Assembly: GCF_024345495.1 (NCBI RefSeq)
Contig: NZ_JAGQBF010000006.1
Coordinates: 1-64,000, forward strand
From: Synechococcus sp. RedBA-s
GTDB lineage: Bacteria > Cyanobacteriota > Cyanobacteriia > PCC-6307 > Cyanobiaceae
DNA: 64,000 bases
Reading direction: 5' to 3'
Translations under genes and position numbers: made by a program
Shown: positions 30,100 to 62,813 of the stretch, piece by piece
Numbering within the stretch: position 1 is the stretch's first letter
How the letters are laid out: each line of letters begins with the position of its first letter
The notes under the pieces: model-generated
Databases searched by the model: none
What the model was told of the DNA's origin: nothing
The model's input: only the letters and a program-made list of their open reading frames with translations

Positions 30100-30185
30100 C
30101 CGAGGGAGGGGACAAGGTACCTGGAATCTAGCAACGAGGGCCCTGAATCCCCCAGTTCGGCGGGGGGACCGTAGGAAGACAAAAT

Positions 30186-30202
30186 GCCCGGACGCGCCGG
30201 GC
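30186..30202 (-). terminator. Hairpin terminator after guaB3
   Basis: Inverted repeat GCCCGG (30186-30191) and CCGGGC (30197-30202) with a 5-base loop, followed on the minus strand by ATTTT. It lies about 110 bases after the guaB3 stop and upstream of trxA, so it probably separates the two transcripts. Confidence 0.55.
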
Positions 30203-30311
30203 GGGTTGGTGTGAGGAGTGTGCGAGCCGGAGCCCCCACAGCATCAGGTTAACGCCCGTCTCCGCTGAGACTCTGTGGTTTCCCCCCACGCGAAGGCGCA
30301 GGTGCGCAGAA

Positions 30312-33452: not shown

Positions 33453-33520
33453 CAGTGCAAGCAGCCTGAAGACGGTGGACCCAGCCTCGCCTAACCTGGC
33501 CTTCGGCAGTGTGGTGCGAG

Positions 33521-36157
33521 ATGGCGGATCCAACGGGTCCCGGCGAATCCGACGGGCGGATCATCCAGACCGACCTGCGCATTGAGATGTCGCGCTCCTA
33601 TCTGGAGTACGCGATGAGCGTGATCGTGGGCCGGGCTCTGCCCGATGCCCGCGACGGGCTCAAACCGGTGCACCGGCGCATCCTCTATGCGATGTACGAG
33701 CTCGGTCTCACCAGCGACCGGCCCTACCGCAAATGCGCCCGGGTGGTGGGCGAAGTGCTCGGCAAATACCACCCCCACGGCGATACGGCCGTCTACGACG
33801 CCCTGGTGCGCATGGCCCAGGACTTCTCGATGCGCATGCCGCTGATCGATGGTCACGGCAACTTCGGCTCGGTCGACAACGACCCTCCGGCGGCGATGCG
33901 ATACACCGAATCACGGCTGCAGGCGCTCACTACCGACAGCCTGCTGGAGGACATCGAAGCGGAAACCGTCGATTACATCGACAACTTCGACGGCTCCCAA
34001 CAGGAACCCACGGTGATGCCGGCGCGGGTTCCGCACCTGCTGCTGAATGGCTCCTCGGGCATCGCGGTGGGCATGGCCACCAACATCCCTCCCCACAACC
34101 TCACCGAACTGATCAATGGCCTGCTGGCTCTGATCGCTGATCCTGATCTTGAGGAGAGGGCCCTGCTGGCGCTGATCCCCGGGCCTGATTTCCCCACCGG
34201 CGGTCAGATTCTCGGCCGCCGCGGCATCCGCGAGACCTACACCACCGGCCGCGGCTCAGTGACCATGCGCGGGGTGGCCGCGATCGAAACCCTTGAAATT
34301 CCCGGCCGCCCCGATCGTGATGCGGTGATCATCACCGAACTCCCCTATCAAACCAACAAGGCGGCGCTGATCGAGCGCATCGCCGAGATGGTCAATGATA
34401 AGAAGCTCGAAGGCATCTCCGACATCCGCGATGAGAGTGATCGCGATGGCATGCGCATCGTGATTGAGCTGCGCCGTGATGCTTACCCGCAGGTGGTGCT
34501 CAACAACCTGTTCAAGCTAACGCCGCTTCAGAGCAACTTCAGTGCCCACATGCTGGCCCTGGTGAACAGCGAGCCGGTGTTGCTCACCCTGCGGCGCATG
34601 CTTGAGGTGTTCCTCGAATTCCGCATCGAAACAATCGAGCGGCGCACCCGCTACCTGCTGCGCAAGGCGGAGGAGCGGGACCACATCCTGCTGGGTCTGC
34701 TGCTGGCGCTCGACCAGCTCGATCCGATCATTGCCCTGATACGGGCGGCCTCGGATGCGGCCACGGCCCGCCTGCAGCTGCAGGAGCGCCATGGCCTCAG
34801 TGAGATCCAGTCGGACGCGATTCTGCAGATGCAGCTGCGTCGGCTCACAGCCCTTGAGGCTGACAAGATCCGCCTTGAGCATGAGGATCTGGTCACCAAG
34901 ATCGTCGATTACAAAGACATTCTGGGCCGGCGTGAGCGCGTGCTCGGATTGATCGAAGCGGAGTTGGTTCAGCTGCGCGAGCGCTACCCATCGGAGCGCC
35001 GCACCGAGATCCTTGATCTGGAGGGCGGTCTCGAAGACATCGACCTGATCGCCAATGAGCGGTCGGTGGTGCTGCTCACCGAGAACGGCTACCTCAAGCG
35101 CATGCCGGTGAGCGAGTTCGAGGCCACCAGCCGTGGCACCCGCGGCAAGGCCGGCACCCGCAGCCAGGGAGAGGAGGCGGTGCGCCTGTTCATCAGCTGC
35201 AACGACCACGACACCCTGCTGCTGTTCAGTGATCGCGGCGTGGTCTATGCCGTGCCGGCCTATCGGGTGCCGGTGGGCAGCCGCGGTGCCAAGGGCACTC
35301 CGGTGGTGCAGTTGCTGCCGATTCCCCGCGAAGAGCAGATCACGTCCCTGGTGGCGGTGAGTGCCTTCGACGACGATGTTCAGCTGCTGATGCTCACCAG
35401 CGGCGGCTACATCAAGCGCACCCGGCTGTCGGCCTTCGCCAACATCCGCTCCAACGGCCTGATCGCCATCAGCCTCGAGGCGGGTGATGCCCTGCGCTGG
35501 GCGCGGCTGGCCCTGCCGGGCGACAGCGTGCTGATCGGCTCGCTCAAGGGAATGACGATCCACTTCCGCCTCACCGATGGCGAACTGCGGCCCCTGGGCC
35601 GCACTGCCCGGGGGGTGCGCGCCATGGCCCTGCGCAGCGGTGATGAGCTGGTGAGCATGGATGTGCTGCCGGCTGAGCTGGCCGATCAAGTGGCCAGCTC
35701 GTCGGCTTCGGAAGGGGAGGAGGAGGAGACTCCGGAGGCCGGTGAGAGCGCCGAAGGTCCCTGGGTGCTGGTGGCCTCCGCCAGTGGGCTGGGCAAGCGG
35801 GTGCCGGTGACCCAGTTCCGTCTGCAGCGCCGGGCCGGTCTGGGCCTGCGCGCCATCAAGTTCCGCCGCGATGGCGACGTGCTGGTGGGGCTGACGGTGA
35901 TGGGCGCCGGCGAGGAACTGCTGCTGGTGAGTGAGCGGGGGGTGATCGTGCGCATGCAGGCCGACAACATCCCCCAGCAATCGCGGGCTGCCACGGGCGT
36001 GCGCCTGCAGAAGCTCGACAGCGGTGATCGTCTCAGCGAGGTGGTGCTCGTTCCCCCGGCCCCCGATGACGAAGAAGTCGGCGATGTCGCTGAGGCCACT
36101 GATACCGCTACCAGCGCAGACAGCCCTGAGATCCTGTCGCCACCGGAGTCCCCCTGA
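33521..36157 (+). CDS. gyrA: DNA gyrase subunit A (type IIA topoisomerase)
   Basis: The 878-residue breakage-reunion subunit has the N-terminal [25 protein letters not shown], the quinolone-region [19 protein letters not shown], the catalytic Tyr in MRYTESRL, and a six-bladed C-terminal pinwheel (blades such as [32 protein letters not shown]). The GyrA-box position reads [14 protein letters not shown], which departs from the canonical QRRGGRG. An acidic insert ([15 protein letters not shown]) interrupts the last blades. A related topoisomerase IV assignment cannot be excluded. Confidence 0.93.
36145..36156 (+). promoter_or_regulatory. Ribosome site and probable CTG start of crtL
   Basis: GGAG at 36145-36148 lies 5 bases before CTG at 36154-36156, and that CTG overlaps the gyrA stop (36155-36157) as CTGA. 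The first legal start in frame (GTG at 36178) has no ribosome site and would cut the N-terminus at LVLGAGP. Confidence 0.5.
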
Positions 36158-36177
36158 CACCAGCCCCAGCAGTCGAT

Positions 36178-37392
36178 GTGCTGGTGCTCGGGGCCGGTCC
36201 TGCGGGGCTGGCCATCGCCAGCGAGCTTGTCCCCCTCGGCCTGCGGGTGATGGGGCTCTCGGCAGACGATCCCACCAGCCCTTGGCCGAACACCTACGGC
36301 ATCTGGGCGGCGGAGCTGGATCAGCTTCACCTGTCCCATCTGCTCAAACACCGCTGGTCGACTTGCGTCAGCTACTTCGGCGCCGACCCTGTGGCCCTCA
36401 GCCGCGACTACGGCTTGTTTGATCCCGGCAAACTCCAGCGCCACTGGCTGGGGCGTTGCTCCGGCATGGACTGGCGGCGGGGACTGGCGGCTGGGCTGAG
36501 CCACGATGATCAGGGCTCCCAGGTGACCACCCAGGAGGGGGAGGTGCTCAGGGCCCGCCTGGTGATCGACACCACGGGCCACAATCCCGTGTTCGTTCAA
36601 CGGCCATCCCTGGGGCCGGTGGCGGCCCAGGCGGCCTACGGAATTGTGGGCACCTTCACGGCGGATCCGGTGCCGCCGGGCCAGTTCGTGTTGATGGACT
36701 ACCGCAGCGAGCATCTGAGCCCTGAGGAGCGCCAGGCCCCCCCCACGTTCCTCTACGCCATGGACCTGGGCGAGGGGCGCTTCTTCGTGGAGGAAACCTC
36801 CCTGGCCCTGGCGCCACCGGTGCCCATCGAGGTGCTTCAGGACCGCCTGCGGCGGCGGCTGGCCCACCGGGGCGTGGCGGTGCTGCAGCAGGAGCACGAG
36901 GAGCGTTGCCTGTTTCCGATGAACCTGCCCCTGCCCGACCTCCGCCAGCGGGTGCTGGGCTTCGGAGGGGCCGCCAGCCTGGTGCACCCCGCTTCGGGTT
37001 ACCTGGTGGGCTCCCTGCTGCGGCGCGCCCCTGGCCTGGCGGCTGCCATTGCCTCAGGTCTGGCACGGCCCGACCTCGACGCTGCCGAAGTGGCCGAGCT
37101 GGCCTGGGCCGCCCTCTGGACCCCGGAGCTGGTGCGCAAGCACGGCATTTACCAGTTCGGACTGGAGAAGCTGATGCGGTTCTCCGAGCAGGAGCTGCGC
37201 CAGTTCTTCAGCACCTTCTTTGCTCTGCCCGAGCGGCAGTGGTATGGATTTTTGACCAACACGCTCAGCCTCAGCGAGCTGGTGGTTGCGATGCTGCGTC
37301 TGTTTACCCAGGCACCGGCTGCTGTGCGCTGGGGACTGATGCAGCTGAAGGGACGCGAAACGGCCCTGCTGTGGCGAGCCCTGCGGGGATAG
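36178..37392 (+). CDS. crtL: Lycopene beta-cyclase, plant-type
   Basis: The roughly 405-residue flavoprotein cyclises lycopene to beta-carotene. The dinucleotide-binding motif VLGAGPAGLAIASEL is at the N-terminus, followed by YGIWAAELDQL, the conserved LVIDTTGHNPVF, FLYAMDLGEGRFFVEETSLA, FGGAASLVHPASGYLVG and a C-terminal LSELVVAMLRLF. The listed start is GTG at 36178, the first legal start. In-frame codons continue upstream to CTG at 36154 ([13 protein letters not shown]), which has a much better ribosome site and is probably the real start. Downstream of gyrA in one operon. Confidence 0.93.
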   Translation: MLVLGAGPAGLAIASELVPLGLRVMGLSADDPTSPWPNTYGIWAAELDQLHLSHLLKHRWSTCVSYFGADPVALSRDYGLFDPGKLQRHWLGRCSGMDWRRGLAAGLSHDDQGSQVTTQEGEVLRARLVIDTTGHNPVFVQRPSLGPVAAQAAYGIVGTFTADPVPPGQFVLMDYRSEHLSPEERQAPPTFLYAMDLGEGRFFVEETSLALAPPVPIEVLQDRLRRRLAHRGVAVLQQEHEERCLFPMNLPLPDLRQRVLGFGGAASLVHPASGYLVGSLLRRAPGLAAAIASGLARPDLDAAEVAELAWAALWTPELVRKHGIYQFGLEKLMRFSEQELRQFFSTFFALPERQWYGFLTNTLSLSELVVAMLRLFTQAPAAVRWGLMQLKGRETALLWRALRG

Positions 37393-45992: not shown

Positions 45993-46355
45993 TCAGCCCT
46001 GGCGCCCGCTGTGGTGGGCACAGCGCTCGCAGGGGCCATCGGGCAACACGGCGCAGCGCAACAGTGGTGAGCGGGCATTGAAGCGACAGCTGGGATCGCC
46101 GATCACCCAGCCACCGTTCCACCAGCGCGCCTCCCTGGGCTGACGCTCGGCTTTCACCTGCAGGGCGATGCTGGCCAGTTCATAGCGGCCATTGCGCAGC
46201 TGGTAGCGGTGGTGCCGCTGAAGCACCAGGAAACTGCGGTGGCCATGGAGAAACCAGCGGCCAGGCTGGGGAATCTCAGCCAGGTCCTCCAGCTCGAGTT
46301 GGGCCAGCAACTGCCCGCTGCCGGCCTGGCGAAGTTCGATGCGCAGGGCCTTCAG
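45993..46355 (-). CDS. DUF6464 family protein
   Basis: A protein of about 120 residues typical of cyanobacteria, unknown function. The motifs are GRWFLHGHRSFLVLQRHHRYQ, NGGWVIGDPSCRFNARSPLLRC and PDGPCERCAHHSG, with four cysteines (one in DPSCRF, one in LLRCAV, two in CERCAH) that could bind a metal. The listed start is a CTG at 46355 that overlaps the terC stop as CTGA and has a strong ribosome site; it restores an N-terminus KALRIELRQAGSGQL that fits the family. The first legal start, TTG at 46310, would cut 15 residues. Confidence 0.78.
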   Translation of the reverse strand: MKALRIELRQAGSGQLLAQLELEDLAEIPQPGRWFLHGHRSFLVLQRHHRYQLRNGRYELASIALQVKAERQPREARWWNGGWVIGDPSCRFNARSPLLRCAVLPDGPCERCAHHSGRQG

Positions 46356-47152
46356 GGGTTCACCTCACCGGCCGCGTTGCTGACACGCCTGGAGAAGCCC
46401 CAGAGGAAGAGAAGCGCCACCAGCAGCAGCAGGGTCCATTCGGGGGGCACCAGCTGGGGCAGTCCGAGGCGGAGCAGCAGGCGCAGCCCCACCAGGCCGA
46501 CAGCCAGGTATCCGGCCCGCTCCAGGTTGGGGTAGATCCCCAGCCAGCGGATGAACAGCTCGGCGGTGAGGCGCAGGGCGATCACGCCGATCACTCCGCC
46601 AGTCATCACCAGCCAGAGCCGATCGCTCACAGCGACCGCGGCGGCCACGCTGTCGATGGAGAAGGCCAGGTCGGTGACTGCCAGGGTGACCACCACGGAC
46701 CCCAGCCCCACTCCCAGCCCCACGGCTGAGGCAGGGCCACTGGAGCTGGTGGCCGCCTGAGGGCCCTGCTGATCCATGGCCGCGGCAGCGCCTGTGGCGG
46801 GTGAAGGCCCATCGCGGTTGGCCTCATCTCCGGGCCGCAGCAGATTGGAGCCGCTCAGCCAGAGCAGATAGGCAGCGGCGGCCAGCTGCAGGGGCCAGAA
46901 GTTCAGCACCCAGCGGGCCAGCAGGATCAGCCCCAAGCGGAAGACCAGGGCCAGACCGAGGCCGAGGTTGAGGGCCTGACGCTGGAGCTGTGGATCCTGC
47001 AGCCGCCTGGCGATGGCCGCCAGGGCAATGGCGTTGTCGGCAGAGAGCACCGCTTCAAGAGCCACCAGCAGCGGCAGCAGTAGCAGCAGCTCTCCCCATT
47101 GATCCGCCTCTTGTATCAGGGGTGTGAGGGAGGAGATCGACTCCGCTTCCAT
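46352..47152 (-). CDS. TerC family integral membrane protein
   Basis: The 266-residue polytopic protein belongs to the TerC family, linked to metal (Mn) export or to thylakoid protein insertion in plants. The signature ALEAVLSADNAIALAAIARRL and the second half LAVTDLAFSIDSVAAAVAVS carry the paired Asp/Asn residues of the transport site. A hydrophilic loop of about 35 residues (GDEANRDGPSPATGAAAAMD) divides the halves. The ATG at 47152 was chosen; the longer frame to 47428 overlaps the divergent gene. Coupled by CTGA to the DUF6464 gene. Confidence 0.88.
   Translation of the reverse strand: MEAESISSLTPLIQEADQWGELLLLLPLLVALEAVLSADNAIALAAIARRLQDPQLQRQALNLGLGLALVFRLGLILLARWVLNFWPLQLAAAAYLLWLSGSNLLRPGDEANRDGPSPATGAAAAMDQQGPQAATSSSGPASAVGLGVGLGSVVVTLAVTDLAFSIDSVAAAVAVSDRLWLVMTGGVIGVIALRLTAELFIRWLGIYPNLERAGYLAVGLVGLRLLLRLGLPQLVPPEWTLLLLVALLFLWGFSRRVSNAAGEVNP
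46353..46366 (-). promoter_or_regulatory. Ribosome site and probable CTG start of DUF6464 gene
   Basis: On the minus strand GAGGTGA (46366-46360) precedes CTG (46355-46353) by 4 bases, and CTG overlaps the terC stop TGA (46354-46352). The upstream stretch reads GTGAGGTGA, close to the anti-Shine-Dalgarno complement. No equally good ribosome site precedes the TTG at 46310. Confidence 0.55.
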
Positions 47153-61245: not shown

Positions 61246-62813
61246 CGGCCGCCTCCGCCTGGAGCTGGAGGGCGCTGCGCCTGGCCCCGCCACTGCTGCC
61301 GCTGCTGCCGGCCCTGGTCTGGTTGCCGGTGCTGCTGCTGCTTCCTGGCCTCAGCCACGGTGGCGGCTGGGACCTGATCGGTCAGTTCGCCGGGGCGGCC
61401 TTCAAGCCGTCGCTGGATCCGCTGGTGCTGAGCTCGGCCTTCACTGGCCTGGGGGTCACGGTGGGAATTGCCCTGCTGGGCTGGGCCCTGAGCCTGGTGC
61501 TGGGTCTGGTGGGGGGAGTGCTCAGCTCGCGCACGGTGTGGCGCACGGCCACCGGCAGTGCCCTGCCGGCGGAGTGCATCAGGCGGTTGCTGGCGGTGCC
61601 CCGGGCGGTGCACGAGCTGCTCTGGGGCCTGCTGCTGCTGCAGTTGCTGGGCCTGCAGCCGGTGGTGGCGGTGCTGGCGATCACGATTCCCTACGCCGCC
61701 CTGGTGGCACGCGTGGTGAGTGATCTGCTCGACGCCCTGCCCACCGCGGGCCTGGAGGGACTGCGCCTGGCGGGTGCACCGGCGGGGCCGGCCCTGCTCA
61801 CCGCCCTGGGGCCGGCGCTGCAGCCGGGGGTGATCAGCTACGGCGGCTACCGGCTGGAATGCGCTCTGCGCAGCGCCACGTTGCTGGGGGTGTTCGGCCT
61901 TGGCGGGCTGGGCACTGATCTGCGGCTCACGCTTCAGTCGCTGCAGTTCCGTGAGCTCTGGAGCGGACTGTGGATGCTGCTGCTGGTGATGCTGGTGCTG
62001 GAGGCCCTGCTGCGGGTTTTGCGCCAGCGTTGGGGGATGCCGGCCCGCTTCGGCCTCAGCCGCCGCTCCGTGGGGCGCGGTGGCCGTGAGGTGGTTCTCG
62101 GCGCTCTGCTGCTGCTGCCTCTGCTGGTGCTGGTGGCCGTGGCCCTGGGGGTCAACCCGCTGCAGCTGGGGCAGCTTCAGCCCCTGCCCGCCTGGACGGC
62201 CGACTGGCCGGCGGTGGCGGCGCTGCCCTGGCCCTCGCTGATCGGCTCCACACTGGCGCTCACCCTGCTGGCGGCGGCCCTGGCGGTGGGCAGTGCACCG
62301 CTGCTGCTGCTGTTGATGGCCCCCTGGCCCTGGGGCCGGGCGCTGATGCAGGCCATCTGGGCGCTGGGGCGCCTCTGGCCGCCGCCACTCACCGCCCTGC
62401 TGCTGCTGTTCGTGCTGCAGCCCGGGGTGCTCACGGCGGCCCTGGCCCTTGGTTTCCACAACCTGGGCATCCTGGGTCGCCTGCTGCTGGAGGCGGAGGA
62501 AGCGGCCCCGCTGCAGGCGGAGGAGGCCCTGGCCGCCGCTGGAGCAGGGCCGCGGCTGGCCCTGCTCTACGGCCGATTCAGCGCCCTGGCCCGCTCCTAT
62601 CTGGCCTACGGCGCCTACCGCGCCGATGTGATCCTGCGCGAGACGGTGGTGGTGGGTCTGGTGGGTGCCGCCGGACTGGGCAGCCTGCTGCTGGAGGCCC
62701 TCAGTTCCTTCGCCATCGACCAGCTGATCGCCCTGGTGGCGGTCTACGTGGTGCTGACCCTGATGGGAGAAGATCTCAGCGACCGCCTCCGCCGGCGCCT
62801 GCTGGCGGCCTGA
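61242..62813 (+). CDS. Fused two-domain PhnE-like ABC permease
   Basis: The 523-residue permease is about twice the usual PhnE length. The two halves each have about six segments and an EAA-type loop: GLEGLRLAGAPAGPALLTAL in the first and [20 protein letters not shown] in the second. Each half also carries a typical region around it (TIPYAALVARVVSDLLDALP and VVGLVGAAGLGSLLLEALSS). A single chain would thus supply both transmembrane halves. Coupled to the ATPase by ATGA. Confidence 0.9.
   Translation: MTAASAWSWRALRLAPPLLPLLPALVWLPVLLLLPGLSHGGGWDLIGQFAGAAFKPSLDPLVLSSAFTGLGVTVGIALLGWALSLVLGLVGGVLSSRTVWRTATGSALPAECIRRLLAVPRAVHELLWGLLLLQLLGLQPVVAVLAITIPYAALVARVVSDLLDALPTAGLEGLRLAGAPAGPALLTALGPALQPGVISYGGYRLECALRSATLLGVFGLGGLGTDLRLTLQSLQFRELWSGLWMLLLVMLVLEALLRVLRQRWGMPARFGLSRRSVGRGGREVVLGALLLLPLLVLVAVALGVNPLQLGQLQPLPAWTADWPAVAALPWPSLIGSTLALTLLAAALAVGSAPLLLLLMAPWPWGRALMQAIWALGRLWPPPLTALLLLFVLQPGVLTAALALGFHNLGILGRLLLEAEEAAPLQAEEALAAAGAGPRLALLYGRFSALARSYLAYGAYRADVILRETVVVGLVGAAGLGSLLLEALSSFAIDQLIALVAVYVVLTLMGEDLSDRLRRRLLAA

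Follow-up and report, generated by a model that had tools for sequence, protein, structure and literature searches.

The gene for a DUF6464 protein in Synechococcus sp. RedBA-s most probably starts at a CTG codon that shares bases with the stop codon of the preceding gene, terC; comparison of related genomes suggests that this start is directed by a Shine-Dalgarno (SD) sequence at the end of terC and that it was relocated from an ATG at what is now codon 4. What the compared genomes show directly is the overlap, the SD sequence and the conservation of both, together with the disappearance of the ATG and its association with a strong SD; the CTG appears to be a genuine but uncommon start codon of a kind already known. 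The junction lies within a stretch of 64,000 nucleotides, here called the window, and the coordinates of its relevant features are collected in Table 1.

Table 1. Features of the two CTGA junctions discussed, in positions of the window.
Feature	Position	Strand	Evidence
terC, TerC family membrane protein, upstream gene	46352..47152	-	Pfam PF03741, E 3.3e-41; NCBIfam YkoY family TIGR03716
terC stop codon TGA	46354-46352	-	direct sequence reading
DUF6464 gene, 120 aa from CTG	45993..46355	-	Pfam PF20065, E 3.2e-33
Proposed DUF6464 start codon CTG, sharing bases with the terC stop (CTGA 46355-46352)	46353..46355	-	
GAGGTGA, Shine-Dalgarno-like, inside terC codons GAG GTG A	46360..46366	-	duplex energy -12.4 kcal/mol
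DUF6464 codon 4, CTG in the window, ATG start site in most homologues	46344..46346	-	
TTG, earliest canonical start codon of the DUF6464 frame	46308..46310	-	
gyrA-like gene (gyrase/topoisomerase IV A subunit), stop TGA 36155-36157	33509..36157	+	Pfam PF00521, E 1.6e-158
crtL, lycopene beta cyclase, proposed CTG start 36154, CTGA with the gyrA-like stop	36154..37392	+	NCBIfam NF045687, 643.7 bits
GGAG, Shine-Dalgarno-like, 5 nt before the crtL CTG	36145..36148	+	-6.1 kcal/mol in 9/9 genus loci

On the minus strand the junction reads GGTGAGGTGAACCCCTGAAGGCCCTGCGC, and terC ends in GCC GGT GAG GTG AAC CCC TGA. The initial annotation had described a CTG at 46355 overlapping the terC stop with GAGGTGA four bases upstream, and the sequence bears out each of these coordinates: the CTG is composed of the last C before the stop and the TG of the stop itself, is in frame with the DUF6464 open reading frame, and follows the end of GAGGTGA by 4 bases and its GAGG by 7 nt. 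An in-frame stop precedes the CTG by four codons, and in the window genome the frame contains no ATG, GTG or TTG from that stop (at -4) as far as codon 4, which is itself CTG. The claim that a CTG start gains 15 residues over the TTG at 46310 holds for the reading frames as such (120 against 105 aa); to call these residues restored is incomplete, as the CTG adds three codons to an ancestral ATG start at codon 4 that is present in 47 of 76 loci.

The genus as defined here comprises nine searched genomes, Synechococcus sp. WH 5701 among them, and the wider family comparison covers the 76 loci. The DUF6464 gene was matched in all nine members of the genus, and all nine retain the CTGA together with the preceding GGTGAGGTGAMCCC. 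Codon 1 is CTG in 21 of the 76 loci, and in every one of the 21 it is overlapped by the terC TGA. Such invariance of the CTG is by itself weak evidence for its use, since the terC stop dictates its TG and a TGA is most often preceded by C, as at 1321 of the 1999 TGA stops sampled. The SD sequence is more telling. All duplex energies were computed with the anti-SD tail AUCACCUCCUUU, which we take to apply throughout, and in the 16 CTG loci that have no ATG at codon 4 the energies upstream of the CTG range from -12.0 to -16.7 (16/16), against -0.5, -2.2, -3.7, -7.6 and -7.6 in the five that keep the codon-4 ATG. From this contrast it follows that CTGA by itself is not the retained feature, and that it is the combination of a strong SD with CTGA that accompanies loss of the ATG. 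At L041, which keeps the ATG, terC ends GAG CTG AAC CCC TGA as against GAG GTG AAC CCC TGA in the window, and this one-base difference creates GAGGTGA. A point against the argument is that the SD letters are at the same time part of terC codons.

Phylogeny limits the weight of these counts. In a midpoint-rooted tree of TerC plus DUF6464 (74 of the 76 loci), 15 of the 16 CTG loci without a codon-4 ATG form one clade (support 0.981), so the 16 are far from independent. The sixteenth (L082:4386, on MAG contig WB4_1_0192) falls outside the main clade with the same SD-CTGA arrangement and ACG at codon 4, and may represent either a separate relocation of the start or a misplacement in the tree. Two further loci have other codons at codon 1: L042 has ATG there, overlapped by the terC TGA (ATGA), with ATC at codon 4, so that a canonical start occupies the equivalent junction, which favours codon 1 as the start; L059 has GTG, with the terC stop 6 nt upstream and hence no overlap.

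These features fit a mechanism in which GAGGTGA in the final codons of terC would direct initiation at CTG 46355. Because GAGGTGA sits inside the last codons of terC, fresh 30S subunits and ribosomes finishing terC could both be set on the CTG, which initiator tRNA would then read. The shift from the ATG three codons downstream would have taken place in the ancestor of the genus and its nearest relatives, the ancestral ATG turning into a leucine codon and the terC tail gaining a strong SD positioned for the CTGA. Genus-wide conservation, loss of the codon-4 ATG and the strong SD thus all support the CTG start originally proposed at 46355; its use in the cell and a possible coupling to terC are inferred.

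It had also been proposed that this junction and that of crtL belong to a class of CTGA couplings, detectable as a genome-wide excess. Our counts, which rest on our own codon-usage gene caller and not on an annotation, do not support such a class. Tandem junctions in the window include eight in-frame CTGA, six ATGA and three GTGA, and the number of CTGA does not exceed chance expectation. Going downstream, the first canonical codon is reached at +8 (GTG) in crtL and +15 (TTG) in DUF6464; for the remaining six CTGA the distances are +1, +1, +2, +5, +5 and +12 codons. What distinguishes the two genes from the rest is their conservation and not this distance alone. One of the six, at 62810-62813 (+) where a phnE-like gene adjoins a GDSL lipase gene, is probably incidental, because its SD is weak and an ATG five codons on is common to four genomes. 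The window also holds a Yfr1 small RNA at 30183-30239 on the minus strand (Rfam RF01116, 61 bits).

Across 2.46 Mb from four genomes with 2362 called genes, which are related so that the counts are not independent, the open in-frame NTGA at tandem junctions number 196 for C, 163 for A, 77 for G and 35 for T. Forty-one of the 196 CTGA are of the TGATG type, in which the next codon is a canonical start, and the remaining 155 compare with 131 and 157 CTGA in the two other frames (mean 144); a clear excess is found for ATGA (163 against 3 and 14) and GTGA (77 against 12 and 26). The in-frame CTGA are thus mostly incidental, 164 of 196 having a canonical start no more than 15 codons away. In a smaller first sample the proportion of CTGA with a strong SD had seemed higher (27% against 18-19%), a lead that was dropped on the larger TGATG-free set, where the SD energy averages -4.04 at the 155 CTGA and -3.73 at 1084 control CTGA (p = 0.22). 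The 32 in-frame CTGA that have no canonical start within 15 codons likewise show no enrichment (mean SD -3.86, p = 0.59).

When 579 ortholog groups, each of two to four members, were scanned without supervision, 56 proved to lack a shared canonical start. An alignment filter (gaps above 0.35 or identity below 0.3) dropped 36 of these, and DUF6464 and crtL are among the 20 that were displayed. Five of the 20 were judged convincing by eye, namely DUF6464, crtL, an amidase, recR and malic enzyme; the other displayed groups were set aside as apparently antisense, misaligned or provided with unshared canonical starts. In-frame CTGA is present in all members of 36 of the 579 groups, and 32 of the 36 have a shared canonical start no more than 23 codons on. 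The four others are DUF6464, which has the best mean SD of these 36 conserved junctions, crtL, an N-acetylmuramoyl-L-alanine amidase and a weak open reading frame (G004_696) with a shared start 28 codons downstream.

The amidase (L149:14502-15611, plus strand) has a signal-peptide-like N-terminus and a CTGA overlap after a carbon-nitrogen hydrolase gene. Its first CTG is retained in nine of nine genus members, no SD was found before the CTG ATC CTG, and an ATG occurs at codon 14 in two of the nine (L280, L282); the start could be the first CTG, the ATC that follows or the CTG at the third codon. Malic enzyme (G004_263; L157:9301-10995, minus strand) has no ATG, GTG or TTG ahead of its conserved region in any of three genomes, and may start at ATC or CTG.

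The CTG start of crtL at 36154 is well supported by comparison. The CTGA reported there is present in the window and is kept, with GGAG 5 nt upstream, in all nine members. The earliest canonical codons beyond the CTG are GTG at codon 9 or 11, which we presume to fall in the first strand of the nucleotide-binding fold. Eight members have GTG at codon 9; G005 (L138), equated with WH 5701, has GTA at codon 9 and GTG at codon 11, so that the codon-9 GTG is no start common to all nine. Other genera contribute 28 crtL loci. In nine of them an NTGA close to the start ends a long frame, of at least 204 codons within the limits of the locus; in the other 19 no such frame ends at a nearby NTGA. The junction codon is GTG in five of the nine (L111, L115, L116, L129, L136), CTG is the sole NTG candidate in two (L112, L130), and further canonical starts are present in two (L113, L109).

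At recR, the apparent start is CTG in 36 of 37 picocyanobacterial genomes and GTG in one (L304). The loci are L161:9553-10149 (+), L264-L272 and L286-L313; two weak matches in the genus (L273, L274) were excluded, and other genera are represented by 28 excised loci out of the 50 non-genus genomes that gave a match. All nine genus members read CTG AGC GGC TTC ACC at the homologous place, and 27 of the 28 other loci have CTG there. Within the genus the stretch from the in-frame stop to the CTG is free of ATG, GTG and TTG; eight of the nine have their next canonical codon at codon 41, and L272 has TTG at codon 8. Eight of the 28 loci from other genera contain an upstream in-frame canonical codon (among them L302 and L304 with ATG at -10, L303 with GTG at -4 and L291 with TTG at -6), so a different start is possible in those eight. 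Codon usage offers a further view of this conservation: in nine genomes with a recR G+C below 0.5, CTG makes up 1 to 5 of the 27 to 31 leucine codons of recR, and the start is CTG in all nine; the fractions multiply to about 10^-9.4 on the assumption of independent genomes, which these are not.

In the three neighbourhoods inspected (G003, G004, G005) the nearest upstream called gene is antiparallel, 88 to 137 nt from the recR CTG, and on the recR strand the first 1.8 kb upstream contain no gene end. In 28 of 37 loci (9/9 in the genus, 19/28 elsewhere) the CTG is preceded at 27-28 nt by TAGATT or TAAATT, which resembles a -10 promoter box and as such would imply a short leader. recR therefore appears to be translated from a CTG on an mRNA of its own. 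The idea that recR too is a CTGA overlap, with the frame ending at the TGA of CTGAGC as the upstream gene, was dropped: that frame varies from 2 to 288 codons among the 36 genomes with CTG, and its last ~20 residues are alike within the genus, yet it has only 5 codons in L269. In L304, where recR has GTG, it runs for 499 codons to the edge of the locus and recR may overlap a real gene.

These findings bear on how a CTG comes to be used. The initial annotation had suggested that CTG is accepted when re-initiating ribosomes arrive from upstream, and in the strict form, in which CTG would be accepted solely through ribosomes ending the upstream gene, this is unlikely. Three of the five canonical-less genes picked by eye (DUF6464, crtL and the amidase) do lie at a CTGA overlap, although five is a small number, and a shared start that overlaps the preceding stop (ATGA, GTGA or TTGA) is seen in 57 of the 579 ortholog groups. 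Against this stand the lack of excess and of SD enrichment among CTGA overlaps, the DUF6464 SD, which seems strong enough for fresh initiation, and above all recR. Since its apparent CTG start involves no overlap (36/37 genomes; three neighbourhoods checked), re-initiating ribosomes are not required for CTG initiation, and the suggestion is not needed. On the simplest reading, CTG would be a weak yet usable start wherever an SD or a leader positions the ribosome, and at terC-DUF6464 and gyrA-crtL the overlap may contribute re-initiating ribosomes.

It is also improbable that the DUF6464 gene still begins at the ancestral site, codon 4 (46346), with the CTGA a bystander. Homologues have their ATG exactly there in 47 of 76 loci, in-frame CTGA junctions are mostly incidental, and codon 4 in the nine genus members is TTG, a normal start codon, in five, which is itself a point against the CTG. 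The remaining members have CTG (three) and TTA (one), and as only CTG, TTG and once TTA are found, codon 4 behaves as a leucine codon in the genus. TTA, which is found at L005/L034 (one genome, two loci), is not a usual start codon; the ACG of L082 also counts against a start at this codon. Spacing is a further difficulty. The GAGG lies 16 nt from codon 4, and before 300 shared ATG starts GAGG peaks at 7-8 nt (13 cases) with two cases at 16 nt, a test in which GAGG is scarce overall and the in-gene control noisy. A start at codon 4 would, moreover, leave unexplained the strong SD 7 nt before the CTGA in 16 of 16 ATG-less CTG loci. Translation from TTG 46310, the earliest ATG, GTG or TTG of the frame and the codon that a gene finder limited to these three would pick, is highly improbable, as this position is TTG in four of the nine genus members and CTG in five, and as a start there would remove the (I/V)ELRQ stretch near the N-terminus that is common to most homologues of other genera. 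Homologues do not begin at the TTG position.

Outside the genus a third site has to be considered alongside the relocated CTG. Seven of the 16 ATG-less CTG loci are non-genus (L038, L039, L049, L073, L075, L082 and L106), and all seven have an in-frame ATG, GTG or TTG inside terC 28 codons upstream of the CTG, or 30 codons in L075 owing to a two-codon insertion. The residues between this NTG and the CTG are partly alike in the seven, a likeness for which the overlapping terC frame could account, and a start at the upstream NTG may be an alternative in these loci. In the genus an upstream start is excluded by the in-frame stop at -4.

If the CTG start of DUF6464 is taken with those of recR, crtL and perhaps the amidase, it is conceivable, though we hold it only tentatively, that picocyanobacteria keep CTG starts over the long term and that an inefficient start is possibly selected, a reading that for recR would span nearly all sampled genera and for crtL and DUF6464 this and related lineages. 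Were it true, CTG would act as a fixed brake or as a sensor of initiation-factor activity, coupled to the upstream gene or not. Gene finders limited to ATG, GTG and TTG, as the common ones are, would misplace the N-termini of these proteins, lycopene cyclase and RecR included, in a large cyanobacterial group. The DUF6464 junction is of value as an example of start codon relocation, in which loss of an ATG is paired with a strong SD before a stop-overlapping CTG. We rate the broadly kept recR CTG as the more interesting of the two, and it offers a clean, apparently uncoupled test case for CTG initiation in cyanobacteria.

CTG is included in NCBI translation table 11, and the AUU of infC is a conserved non-canonical start with a regulatory role. 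A literature search, mostly of titles and abstracts and with subscription papers largely outside its reach, found no report on CTG or other non-AUG starts in cyanobacteria, on a CTG start of Prochlorococcus recR or on coupling at CUG. Bacterial CUG starts are rare: in the text available of one study, 20 annotated ORFs in 69 bacterial genomes are quoted as starting with CUG, and CUG reporter activity is described as undetectable in tobacco chloroplasts and E. coli (PMC9845219), which counts against a CTG start. The cases quoted there resemble the present ones in that single genes use CTG, and differ in resting on annotation where ours rest on comparison across genomes. Switches from AUG to CUG are given as 2 of 61,358 in the accessible part of another (PMC5622118). 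Signals in a sequence are, moreover, no proof of use, as illustrated by the dnaA gene of Caulobacter, where, by the account available, a toeprinted CUG turned out to be unused in vivo (PMC8443254).

An odd start codon can be regulatory, as described in the text at hand for Streptomyces sigR, whose GTC start is repressed by IF3 (PMC5472188). As with the CTG of recR, a poor start codon is retained there across a group of species, the recR case being known from sequence. The closest parallel to terC-DUF6464 in architecture is found in the ATGA and TGATG termination-reinitiation pairs (Huber et al. 2019, PMC6728339), which likewise share bases between stop and start and have an SD in the end of the upstream gene. 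In cyanobacteria, according to the portion of that paper available, fewer than 10% of gene pairs overlap and ~40% of those have an SD. Its pairs are coupled, whereas coupling between terC and DUF6464 would be a prediction from their arrangement; and its overlaps are ATGA and TGATG, with a count of zero for CTG-, GTGA- and TTGA-words in the same portion of text, so that DUF6464 differs from them by its CTG.
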